From assembly GCA_018434945.1 (NCBI GenBank), contig JAHDOI010000024.1, positions 1 to 64,000 of the forward strand: a stretch of 64,000 nucleotides of DNA. Direction: 5' to 3'. The position numbers and the translations under genes were made by a program. The notes under the pieces were generated by a model. It was not told the origin of the DNA, made no database searches, and worked only from the letters and a program-made list of their open reading frames with translations. Shown here piece after piece: positions 17,362 to 29,572 of this stretch. How positions within the stretch are numbered: position 1 is the first letter of the stretch; every line of letters starts with the position of its first letter. The DNA is from Selenomonadales bacterium. Lineage in GTDB: Bacteria > Bacillota > Negativicutes > Sporomusales > UBA7701.

Positions 17362-17654
17362 AAAACCCTGCAAATCGACATACCATCCTCACGCCACACG
17401 CCCCTTCGTCTCCTAACAAAACTAAGAAACAGGCAGAAGCGCGGCCGGGCCGTAGGTGCGGGGCGACTTTGCGGAGGCTGTTACCGCGCCGTTAGCGAAG
17501 CAGAGCAGCGCCGCCGCACGCGAGGCCATGGACGGCCGAGCGAGGAGTCATCGGGCATGGACGCCCGTTGACGACGGTGCTCGCGGGCGCGCGGCGCAAG
17601 CTTTACGGCGCGTTCAGCCGGAGGATCGGAGCCCCGCGCCTACGGTCCGGCCGC
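17362..17654. repeat. Palindromic intergenic element, family B, copy 2
   Basis: The 24-base arms at 17441-17464 (GCGGCCGGGCCGTAGGTGCG then GGGC) and 17631-17654 pair throughout, with two positions being G-T. Just inside, GGGGC-GA-C faces G-GA-GCCCC, a tandem GA/GA mismatch seen in every family-B copy. The core has CATGGACGGCCGAGCGAGGAG, GTTGACGACGG and GTTCAGCCGGAGGATCGGAG. Flank 17362-17440 repeats that of copy 1. Confidence 0.87.
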
Positions 17655-25720: not shown

Positions 25721-25936
25721 GTTGTGAGGTGCCGCAGGCTGCCGGCTCCGATGCTACAGAAGCACGCGCCGTAGACTTGGGTCTTGCGCCGCCAGCACCG
25801 TCGCCAACTGTCGTCCGTGATAGATGGCTCCTCGCCCGGCCATCCATGGCCGGGCGTGCTGCGTCGCTACGACCGCTTCGTCAACGGCGCGTAGCATCTT
25901 CCGCAAAGTCGCCGTTCGCCTGCGGCACCTCACAAC
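25721..25936. repeat. Palindromic intergenic element, family B, copy 3 (inverted)
   Basis: GTTGTGAGGTGCCGCAGGC (25721-25739) and GCCTGCGGCACCTCACAAC (25918-25936) are a perfect 19-bp inverted repeat. On the minus strand the core reads ACGGCGACTTTGCGGAAG, GCGCCGTTGACGAAGCGG, CGAGGAGCCATCTATCACGG, ATCGGAGCCGG, keeping the GGC-GA-C/G-GA-GCC mismatch pair. Confidence 0.9.
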
Positions 25937-26465: not shown

Positions 26466-26491
26466 GAAAAAAGAGCGGGGGTACCGCTCTT
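26466..26491 (-). terminator. Terminator after the QueC-like gene
   Basis: AAGAGCGG (26471-26478) pairs with CCGCTCTT (26484-26491), and the minus side ends in six Ts. The sequence CAATGAAAAAAGAGCG recurs in the terminator at 29573. Confidence 0.8.
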
Positions 26492-26536
26492 GATGATTAT
26501 GTCGGGTAATGTGTTATTGTTAAGTATCTATACTAA

Positions 26537-28393
26537 TCACCGGATGATACAAACTCGACAACGGCCTTTCTTTTGAAAGTCGTTACGAAAAACATCATCG
26601 TTATGAATAGACCTCTCAGGGTCATATACTAAAAATAATATAAAACTGTCTTCCTGATATTTTATTAAGTCAGCAGCCATTCCTTCCGTTGCTTTACTCG
26701 GAGTGGTACTACCTCTAAGATATTTAGTTTCAATCACTAGAGCAAAATCTTTTGCGGAATGATCAGGAATTACCTTTGCTAAAGCAAAAGGTAAAGAAGG
26801 GTGTTCTCTTTCAAATGCTTCACGATATCCTTCCAATAAAGAACTAACCTTATCATTCAGGTCATTTTCACCTGTTGGTTTTTCCCTTTGAAAGGATATG
26901 GGAATAGCCTTTTCCATTTGGTCAGCTATTGTTTTTACAAGTCTTAATACAGGCTCTTGAGAGTATTCCCTATTCGAGATAATACTTAATAGGGAGTTTT
27001 CCAGACATTTTTCAAATGGATCGTCGTATATTGCTCTAATTCTCTGTAGTGCTTTAGCAACTTGTTTACCGTGACGATTACACAAATTGTAAACTTTTTC
27101 AATAGCATCTATTTCATCGTTAGATATATAATCAACTAAATAAGTAAGCTCAGGCATCATTCTGTCAGAGAAATGATCAATATTCCACTGGGCATAATTT
27201 CTTGCCTGTCGAAGATAATCTATAAGCGCCGTTTTTTCTTCGTTTGACCCAATGTTTTCTCGTATAAAATCAAGACAGTAAAGTCCCAAATTTTCAGCAT
27301 CTTCTTGTTCTGCTGCATATGTGGCCAATCTTCTATCAACACATTGGAAGCAACATCCACAATGCGTGGCGCCTCCGATATTTTTAAAAGTTTTACTACA
27401 TGACACTGCACTTGGAATTAAGTGTTCTCTCTTATATGTTTTGAGTAACGATATAATATCAGTTTTTGTTAATAAAACAAACGGAGCTTTTATTGTGATT
27501 TGCCTATCACTAACTAGTGAAAAAAGATTACTTAACAAAAACAGAGTTCTTGGGTGAGTTGTGCGACTGGCGCGTGCATTCATTAAATCCTGTCGACGCG
27601 GAAAGTTTATACTTGTTATACCGTTTTCGTAAACGTACAAAGAATCTTTCTTATAAGCCTCCGCCAAGGAAAATGCTATTGTATTATATAAGAACGCACG
27701 AGTACGTTGAGATTCTTCAATACGTCTGCATCCAGTTAAGGAACAATCAAACTTGTAATGTTTTATTCGCTCTGGATAGTATATATTTAGAGCTTCAACC
27801 AAGCCATCCTGGGTCTTTTTGGTAGACGGATTTGATCTGTGACTAATAAGGCAGACGGAAGATTTGGTTTCTTCTAAAACACTAATTGCGCCAGCTAAAG
27901 AATCGAGGCCTCCAGAAAATAATAGTATTTTTATATCATCGCTATGCTGCAAGGCAAACTCTTTGTTATCAAATAGACTGAAAGGTAAAGTGTTATGCCC
28001 TGCCTCAAATTCAAATCGAAACTCACGATCACCCGACATGAAACAAAGGGCATCATTTAAAGCCTTTTTTACCTCTGGTTTGCTCCAAAACTCATAATCT
28101 CGAACTTTTATAAAAAACCAGAAAGAACGAGCCCACGCATGATACTCTATACTATCACGGCTTCCACGACTAACGAGTCTATCCGCGCCGTATACATATG
28201 CCGCAATTTCTAGTAAATCTTTAATTCTTTTTGGCAGGAAGTATAGATCGCCAATAAAATTCGGGAATAAGGCTTTTATGTTTTGATCATTTAAGCCGTT
28301 ATCCCTATAATCCAATATTCTCGAATCACACTTTCTTAAAATTAGCTTTGGGATCTGCGCGCCATTACAAGCAATTGCATAAGGGGAATCCAC
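26537..28393 (-). CDS. QueC-like PP-loop ATPase fused to a PD-(D/E)XK nuclease-like domain
   Basis: A 618-residue protein. Residues 155-175 hold a PP-loop, FSGGLDSLAGA, as in QueC, the 7-cyano-7-deazaguanine synthase; a QueC-type zinc site follows (Cys332, then CGCCFQC with Cys345, Cys348, Cys351). An unusual N-terminal part of 150 residues precedes it. The last 75 residues have PD (543-544), then E-x-K (Glu555, Lys557) and KYLRG...AADLIKY, the pattern of a PD-(D/E)XK nuclease of the DpnII/MboI kind. GTG at 28393 shares one base with the stop of the partner gene. The DNA is far more AT-rich than its surroundings. QueC-like enzymes occur in Qat and type IV CBASS antiphage systems; a fused nuclease is not something I know from either. 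Confidence 0.85.
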   Translation of the reverse strand: MDSPYAIACNGAQIPKLILRKCDSRILDYRDNGLNDQNIKALFPNFIGDLYFLPKRIKDLLEIAAYVYGADRLVSRGSRDSIEYHAWARSFWFFIKVRDYEFWSKPEVKKALNDALCFMSGDREFRFEFEAGHNTLPFSLFDNKEFALQHSDDIKILLFSGGLDSLAGAISVLEETKSSVCLISHRSNPSTKKTQDGLVEALNIYYPERIKHYKFDCSLTGCRRIEESQRTRAFLYNTIAFSLAEAYKKDSLYVYENGITSINFPRRQDLMNARASRTTHPRTLFLLSNLFSLVSDRQITIKAPFVLLTKTDIISLLKTYKREHLIPSAVSCSKTFKNIGGATHCGCCFQCVDRRLATYAAEQEDAENLGLYCLDFIRENIGSNEEKTALIDYLRQARNYAQWNIDHFSDRMMPELTYLVDYISNDEIDAIEKVYNLCNRHGKQVAKALQRIRAIYDDPFEKCLENSLLSIISNREYSQEPVLRLVKTIADQMEKAIPISFQREKPTGENDLNDKVSSLLEGYREAFEREHPSLPFALAKVIPDHSAKDFALVIETKYLRGSTTPSKATEGMAADLIKYQEDSFILFLVYDPERSIHNDDVFRNDFQKKGRCRVCIIR

Positions 28394-29187
28394 TACGCCT
28401 GGACCCCCTCTCTCCGGAGTTCCTCACGAATTTTCTCAAGAGAACGCTTAATTAAGTATCGTATTGCTAAATCAGATGGAATCTGATTATTTGAGTATTT
28501 GTTAAACCAACCAGCTGCGAAGGATTGAGTAATCTTAGAAGTATCAAAAGCATGTTTAGAGATTATCTCGATATGATTTTCAATATGACGACTAAAAACT
28601 TCTCTGTCACTAATTGTCTTTATGACATTGGACGCTTCTCGTTCTAAAAAGTATTTTATATACCGCTCAGTATATTTTGCAAAAAAGCACCTAGATATTT
28701 CGCAAAACCCAGCACCCGTTCCTACTTTTTTCCATATATTTATCTGACTATACTCACCATCAAATAAAACCAAATTATCATCTGCGTTGTCCCTAAAAAA
28801 TTTGGTTATTGCATCTGTTGCAGCTTGGCGCGCAATCTCGGTATATTCTAAAGAACCAGAAAAAGAAGTAGATAACAACCATTTATATAACTCACGAGAA
28901 GAAGAAAGTGCTGTTGAGTTGTTATTTATATTAATATTTAGCTGGGATAAATCCAGACTAGGATCAGATGAGTTTTTTTGTATTGCTGCTATGACAACAA
29001 GAAATTTATAGGTAGCGAACAAACCTTTGTCTGATGACATTTCTCTAAATTGCTTACTAACATTTTTGAGCGTATTGTTCATAATCGTTGATATATTTGA
29101 ATTGTCATATTCATAATTAGCAATTTGTTCTACTATCTTGCACCAATGTTGGGTTCTTGGGAGCAACCCGATTCTTTCGTGTCCCAT
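28393..29187 (-). CDS. Partner protein of the QueC-like gene, Met-Gly start
   Basis: A 264-residue cytoplasmic protein without signal or membrane segment, mostly helical: MGHERIGLLPRTQHW, a middle part with INININNNS, and a helical end (SDLAIRYLIKRSLEKIREEL). Not recognised as a named family. ATG at 29187 has AGGGGGGA four bases upstream. Its stop (TAG) overlaps the GTG of the QueC-like gene, so the two are translated together. The second residue is glycine, which would be exposed once Met is removed; in Qat and type IV CBASS the reported target of the QueC-like enzyme is the N-terminus of a partner protein. AT-rich like its partner. Confidence 0.82.
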   Translation of the reverse strand: MGHERIGLLPRTQHWCKIVEQIANYEYDNSNISTIMNNTLKNVSKQFREMSSDKGLFATYKFLVVIAAIQKNSSDPSLDLSQLNININNNSTALSSSRELYKWLLSTSFSGSLEYTEIARQAATDAITKFFRDNADDNLVLFDGEYSQINIWKKVGTGAGFCEISRCFFAKYTERYIKYFLEREASNVIKTISDREVFSRHIENHIEIISKHAFDTSKITQSFAAGWFNKYSNNQIPSDLAIRYLIKRSLEKIREELRREGVQA

Positions 29188-29298
29188 AAAATCCCCCCTA
29201 GCTGTATCACTATTCTGTATTTTTCGCTAATTTGTAAAATCCTGCAATATCGCCGTTATATTTGTCATGTTGTAACAGAATTCCCCAATTTTCTTTGC

Positions 29299-29498
29299 GG
29301 GGGCGCAGACGAACGGCGACGTTGCGGAGGCTGCTACGCGCCGTTGGCGAAGCGGTGAGCACGCGGCGCGAGCGGCCATGGACGGACGCGAGAGGAGTCA
29401 TCTGTCACGGACGACAGTTGACGACGGCGCCAGCGGGCGAAACCGCGAGCCATACGGCGCGTTAAGCCGGAGGACAGGAGCCGGGCGTTTGCGCCCCC
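29299..29498. repeat. Palindromic intergenic element, family B, copy 4
   Basis: GGGGGCGCAGACG (29299-29311) pairs with CGTTTGCGCCCCC (29486-29498) with one G-T. The core has CGGCGACGTTGCGGAGGCTG, GCGCCGTTGGCGAAGCGG, CATGGACGGACGCGAGAGGAG, TCATCTGTCACGGACGACAG and GTTAAGCCGGAGGACAGGAG. It lies directly upstream of the QueC-like cassette. Confidence 0.87.
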
Positions 29499-29572
29499 TC
29501 AAAGGTATTGGCACAAGGCCAGCGCCTCCGCCCGCGGTTTGCGTCTCCGCAAAGGTATCGGCGGAAGCAATG

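Follow-up and report, generated by a model that had tools for sequence, protein, structure and literature searches.

A horizontally acquired gene pair encoding a QatC-like protein with a fused nuclease domain and a QatB-like partner, a candidate defence system

What do two overlapping AT-rich genes, one of which joins a QueC-family enzyme to a nuclease-type domain, do for the bacterium whose GC-rich chromosome carries them? The original prediction, made on the 64,000-nucleotide stretch of DNA analysed here (the window), saw in this pair a candidate antiphage system, namely, a compact relative of Qat in which modification and DNA cleavage are fused. We therefore examined the locus and its borders, both proteins, their relatives, and the known systems that they resemble.

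Results

An acquired AT-rich cassette at a variable site

The pair consists of a 618-aa ORF with a GTG start and, directly upstream on the same strand, a 264-aa ORF with an ATG start, the two overlapping by one base. The genes and the borders of the locus are as follows.

26537..28393, minus strand: 618-aa QatC-like protein, GTG start, nuclease domain at the C-terminus
28393..29187, minus strand: gene of the 264-aa partner, predicted fold QatB-like (ORF, AF2, Foldseek), N-terminus MGHERIGLLPRTQHW
26471..26491, minus strand: terminator-like hairpin 3' of the pair, part of the site and also in congeners
29294..29516, no strand assigned: interspersed GC-rich repeat, right border, 95.5% identity with the copy in congener G001
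26491..29293, no strand assigned: acquired cassette, approximate extent, from alignment ends against congeners G001 and G004

Both ORFs and their overlap, as well as the PP-loop, the four cysteines and the PD...ExK unit described below, lie at the positions noted originally. The compositional contrast was equally confirmed, since the GC content of the two genes is 0.350 and 0.368, against 0.618 in the rest of the window, and the GC3 of the pair is about 0.28-0.30, that of the nearby PFOR gene being 0.87. The pair is also flanked, as had been seen, by a terminator on the left (the hairpin, read from 26491 to 26471) and a repeat element on the right. This repeat has 28 matches genome-wide and occurs in congeners too; further copies in the window lie at 25725-25932 and 17462-17633. 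Promoter-like sites at the pair showed no excess over the shuffled expectation.

The congeners G001 and G004 keep the flanking gene, the hairpin and the repeat, but the cargo between them differs, measuring 892 bp in G001, where it contains an ORF of 229 aa, and 678 bp in G004. As these two congeners hold different cargo at the site, the window cassette is an acquired insert, and because they retain the hairpin, the latter was assigned to the site and not to the cargo. The pair is thus a horizontally acquired AT-rich cassette of approximately 2.8 kb, and the site that it occupies is variable. The pair is also rare, being present in one of 380 genomes of the class and in two of 398 of the phylum. 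The equivalent site with other small cargo was recorded in two congeners at L115:13437-14126 and L116:15342-16018, and the 229-aa ORF found at the congener site has no Pfam match. The pair lies outside any defence island and, since its own neighbours are housekeeping genes, the window copy offers no defence-island argument.

The large protein is QatC-like over its first 470 residues or so

The features of the large protein that are relevant to its assignment are the following.

26984..28393, minus strand: QatC-like part, residues 1-470, with N-terminal extension, QueC core and C-terminal extension (NCBIfam, Foldseek)
27899..27919, minus strand: PP-loop FSGGLDS (ATP site), residues 159-165; S160, G161, G162, D164 and S165 invariant in 37 homologs
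27551..27565, minus strand: RTTHP motif, residues 277-281, QatC-type substrate pocket, invariant in 37 homologs
27341..27400, minus strand: zinc site C332, C345, C348 and C351, invariant in 37 homologs
26549..26839, minus strand: DpnII/MboI-type REase domain, residues 519-615; PF18742, E 7.7e-9, 35.7 bits against a cut-off of 27
26723..26767, minus strand: catalytic-type motif P543-D544-H545 ... E555-x-K557, common to all three nuclease-bearing members

In HMM searches of the kind envisaged with the original prediction, the Pfam QueC (PF06508, E 8.2e-8) and DpnII-MboI models both exceeded their curated cut-offs, which places the observation beyond chance, and QatC models matched as well. Specifically, NCBIfam QatC (NF041925) matched residues 56-369 with an E-value of 1.6e-52 and 178.8 bits, short of the equivalog cut-off of 280 bits, and PADLOC also names the protein QatC (E 1.7e-45). 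The AF2 model is confident across most of residues 1-470 and, when compared using Foldseek, it matched the QatC crystal structure 9y01_B (E 1e-17, 469 columns), with QueC and Cap9 ranking lower.

The active site agrees with this assignment. The QatC signature as defined in PMC13329287 (SGGxDS, RxRxxxF/Y, ExG, HP, P-x4-TK and the cysteine site) is complete, and its residues are invariant or almost so in the 37 homologs, with some motif spacings that differ from those of QatC. Where QueC and Cap9 have a Tyr/Asp substrate pair, the 618-aa protein has TTHP, as in QatC, for which the role of this motif is taken from PMC13279940 and PMC13329287. An extension corresponding to the C-terminal one with which QatC binds QatB is present too. 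The QueC-like identity first proposed therefore stands at the level of the family, the closer assignment being QatC, on the basis of a QatC-type active site and QatC-type extensions.

The partner is probably QatB-like

The second gene encodes a protein that starts with a conserved motif.

29143..29187, minus strand: N-terminal motif Met-Gly-His-x-R-x-G-x-L-P, with M1, G2 and H3 invariant; Gly2 is the proposed modification acceptor

The window sequence begins MGHER, M1, G2 and H3 are invariant in 19 of the 19 paired partners that were aligned, and the MGH start is kept in every paired relative recovered, a result that rests on loci found by scanning with the large protein or the partner's C-terminal half, in which the motif was not used. 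At the sequence level, the 264-aa partner as query matched no family above cut-off and no PDB chain, and QatB was not recovered from the PDB by a sequence search with a 41-row partner profile; a profile comparison between partner and QatB gave a weak link (E 3.9e-4, probability 36%). The AF2 model (pLDDT 87.6, pTM 0.88) is all helical, with residues 1-5 disordered, and Foldseek against 350,542 PDB chains placed QatB 9y02_A first (probability 0.99, E 0.17), the other rows listed having probabilities of 0.20 or less. VIA-align superposed partner and QatB over 200 of 215 residues with a Z of 12.0 and an rmsd of 4.1 Å, the next fold having a Z of 7.7. Since chance Z can easily run high for helical proteins, this fold match alone constitutes moderate evidence; taken together, predicted fold, gene order, Met-Gly start and the weak profile link are good evidence that the partner is QatB-like. 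The Met-Gly start of the original prediction is real, and it can be refined to a Met-Gly-His start on a QatB-like predicted fold.

A family of two-gene loci with exchangeable C-termini

The two-gene unit was found at over 80 further loci. When viral contigs were scanned with the large protein, 20 loci emerged, and the partner's C-terminal half as query added three; at the large-protein loci with enough upstream sequence, a partner with an MGH start lies directly 5'. An extra scan with an MGH pattern returned 71 loci, some already known, which served solely to compare gene order and C-termini, because the pattern itself contained MGH and hence lends no support to its conservation. Searches of plasmid and phage records with the partners yielded one plasmid relative, and no credible match among the phage records. 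After removal of redundancy, 36 loci were compared, in which only the pair is conserved, common prophage genes aside; a third conserved gene sought among their neighbours was not found beyond such genes. A serine recombinase lies near the pair in 16 of the 36.

A tree of the QatC part places this MGH family on one side of a branch (100/96) and nine canonical or canonical-like QatCs on the other, the certainty of the canonical side being weakened by two long branches, L134 and L136. The window member forms one supported set (100/99) with L006, L009, L012 and L014. Three proteins of this set carry a nuclease, namely, those of the window, of L009 (a Leptospira noguchii plasmid) and of L012 (genome G429, of the same phylum), whereas L006 ends in TIR_2 (E 9e-16) and L014 in a short tail with no domain assignment. 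The window pair is no singleton, belonging instead to the MGH family, whose members differ in their C-termini (nuclease, TIR, winged helix or unassigned). The L014 locus adjoins a type IIG/ISP restriction enzyme together with RmrA/PIN-like genes.

PDH, E and K are retained in all three nuclease domains, and that of L012 scores 30.0 bits against the PF18742 cut-off of 27. The AF2 model of the window protein has, over this region, a helix/strand order that fits PD-(D/E)XK, at a pLDDT of only about 42-64; a sequence search of the domain against the PDB gave no credible match, and additional nuclease-type members were sought in viral contigs and not found. The TIR of L006, so far the one member of this form, matches the ThsB model of PADLOC with an E-value of 9.2e-52. 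Outside the supported set, most tails are winged-helix-like or have no domain assignment, the clear case being L029, with an OmpR-type winged helix (E 1e-9); winged-helix-like ends were seen in many prophage relatives (L017-L102).

We regard the C-terminal domain as a probable effector mainly because nuclease and TIR replace one another on a core that stays constant. The winged-helix members show, on the other hand, that a killing domain is not found at every C-terminus, and the fact that the tails of most relatives are winged-helix-like or unassigned, and match no known effector, counts against a defence reading. Interrupted copies were also noted, namely, L012:7312-9185, where the nuclease-type large gene is split across two ORFs, and the paired locus L016:8001-9562, where the large protein ends at 264 aa, with the stop within the match.

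Relationship to known systems

The pair belongs with the QatB-QatC core, without being a qatABCD system. It shares with Qat the QatC sequence and fold, the N- and C-terminal extensions, the TTHP pocket, and a partner of QatB-like predicted fold with a Met-Gly start, encoded directly upstream. It differs in that qatA and qatD are missing, the putative effector is fused to the enzyme, and the QatC part falls in a separate clade. Neither QatA (KAP ATPase) nor QatD (TatD nuclease) was found near the pair, the only KAP and TatD matches of the genome being on contigs C74 and C6, respectively. Moreover, the partner has MGHxR and a tail of approximately 14 residues, whereas the canonical QatBs sampled start with MGTS where complete and have tails of 30-90 residues. 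The compact Qat relative with a fused nuclease domain that had been anticipated is thus borne out by QatC homology and a PF18742 match on one protein.

Type IV CBASS (Cap9 plus CD-NTase) likewise places a QueC-family enzyme next to a partner with a Met-Gly N-terminus, but the pair has no CD-NTase or Cap10, its partner is QatB-like, and Cap9 keeps the QueC substrate residues (YxDC) where the 618-aa protein has RTTHP of the QatC type. With no CD-NTase in the cassette and the Cap9 substrate residues missing, this assignment was ruled out. As for DpnII/MboI nucleases, the C-terminal domain scores above the gathering threshold of their model and keeps D, E and K, but here it is fused and has no methyltransferase partner. 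Similarly, the TIR of L006 resembles that of Thoeris through the ThsB model, yet it sits on another core and has no ThsA.

In the limited literature searched, no description was found of a QatC-like fusion to nuclease or TIR, or of the MGH partner, in line with the original statement that no described system of this two-gene form was known. According to a survey of the QueC family, roughly one in three members of its QatC cluster, and no more, have qatA and qatD as neighbours (PMC13329287), and the MGH family may explain part of the remainder. On a haloarchaeal plasmid (L136:1560-5152), a QatB-like gene that is split (MGTATR...) and a QatC-like gene are accompanied by a further gene, annotated as a restriction endonuclease; the stretch shown has no qatA or qatD, and the nuclease thus stands in trans next to QatBC.

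Proposed function and alternative explanations

A 1:1 complex of QatB and QatC is sufficient against lambda phage, and protection requires Gly2 of QatB, the PP-loop of QatC and its two threonines (PMC13279940). That study left the QatC reaction open, reconstitution of activity in vitro having failed (PMC13279940). Cap9 uses 7-carboxy-7-deazaguanine, which it attaches to a glycine at the N-terminus (PMC13279940, PMC11996544). With the architecture, homology, conserved sites, C-terminal variety on a constant core and acquisition given by the data, we infer a role in defence, with a probability of roughly 0.6: the pair would be an acquired QatB-QatC relative whose enzyme modifies Gly2 of the partner and thereby controls the fused nuclease against phage.

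According to this proposal, the small protein would present a short free N-terminus, Met-Gly-His, on a QatB-like helical body. The large protein would bind ATP at the PP-loop and hold zinc; if it works in the manner of Cap9 and QatC, it may activate a carboxylate and join it to the N-terminal glycine of the partner. The DpnII/MboI-type nuclease would then act as effector in cis, instead of separate QatA and QatD. Phage infection would alter the state of the complex, such that the nuclease is released or aimed at DNA, either that of the invader or the cell's own, the latter as an abortive response.

Several other explanations were weighed against this defence reading. A toxin-antitoxin-like or selfish module, in which the partner and its modification state restrain the nuclease, with retention as the primary role and phage protection as a secondary one, would suit two compact overlapping genes that are mobile, patchy among closely related genomes and, in one homolog, plasmid-borne. 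We find it unlikely, since the pair is homologous to QatBC, which protects and for which such a role is unreported (PMC13279940), and the C-termini of many relatives are winged-helix-like rather than toxin-like. These same tails, present in many prophage relatives near recombinases and clearest in L029, speak for a regulatory module, whereby enzyme and partner control prophage or host genes through DNA-binding C-termini, nuclease and TIR being side branches; the window protein and those closest to it have nuclease or TIR, however, and kinship with QatBC suggests defence, making regulation an improbable explanation.

The co-occurrence on one protein of a QueC-family part and a restriction nuclease, and the existence elsewhere of 7-deazaguanine DNA modification (cited in PMC13329287), also bring to mind modification-dependent restriction, where the QueC-like part makes a 7-deazaguanine-type DNA mark that the nuclease reads. 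We give this very little credence: the pocket is QatC-type and not QueC-type, QatC does not restore queuosine (PMC13329287), and the cassette has no gene for a base-inserting transglycosylase. Because the Met-Gly-His N-terminus of the partner is the likely substrate, modification is probably of protein and not of DNA, and probably of the N-terminal glycine; of the originally predicted fusion of modification and DNA cleavage, the fused nuclease domain is supported. Queuosine metabolism, with the enzyme as an extra QueC, finds a basis in the PF06508 match and was ruled out, given the QatC-type active site and the canonical QueC encoded elsewhere in the genome, on contig C55; no que genes lie near the pair, which sits outside a queuosine setting, as the original prediction requires.

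Returning to the defence reading, the relatives with a TIR or DNA-binding domain suggest that such probable defence systems make up a modular family not yet described. For the open question of how QatC acts on QatB and thereby stops phage, a two-gene form with a fused effector would offer a simpler readout of what is perhaps the same chemistry, namely, cleavage of DNA or, with the TIR form, loss of NAD.

A phage pair in which the proposed acceptor glycine is replaced

Among the replication genes of a viral contig (L015:7602-8707), a partner homolog 50% identical to that of L009 starts with MRHER, Gly2 being replaced by Arg. The next ORF, of 110 aa, has a short start followed by a stretch matching residues 360-441, approximately, of the large protein; it has neither catalytic core nor effector, and keeps the C-terminal stretch of the QatB-binding type. 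Among complete loci, broken copies aside, this partner is the sole one with no full large protein, and it is the sole one with no Gly2. A search for further relatives of the orphan pair returned only L015 itself. On this single contig, the pair is possibly an anti-defence decoy or a decaying relic, and, if a decoy, the N-terminal glycine would be the step that phages need to block.

It is tempting to speculate more broadly, as a tentative view that we consider well short of an even bet, that a fixed core of MGH partner and QatC-like protein, with N-terminal protein modification and exchangeable effectors (nuclease, TIR, DNA-binding), constitutes a widespread, undescribed two-gene immune class, to which at least one phage answers with a decoy pair, that is, a partner with another residue in place of the acceptor glycine, next to a QatC-like protein devoid of its catalytic core. 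A stretch resembling the QatC-like part was also seen in two unannotated Listeria phage records, H43 and H44 (OR848142, OR846725), with 28% identity and an E-value of 4e-7.
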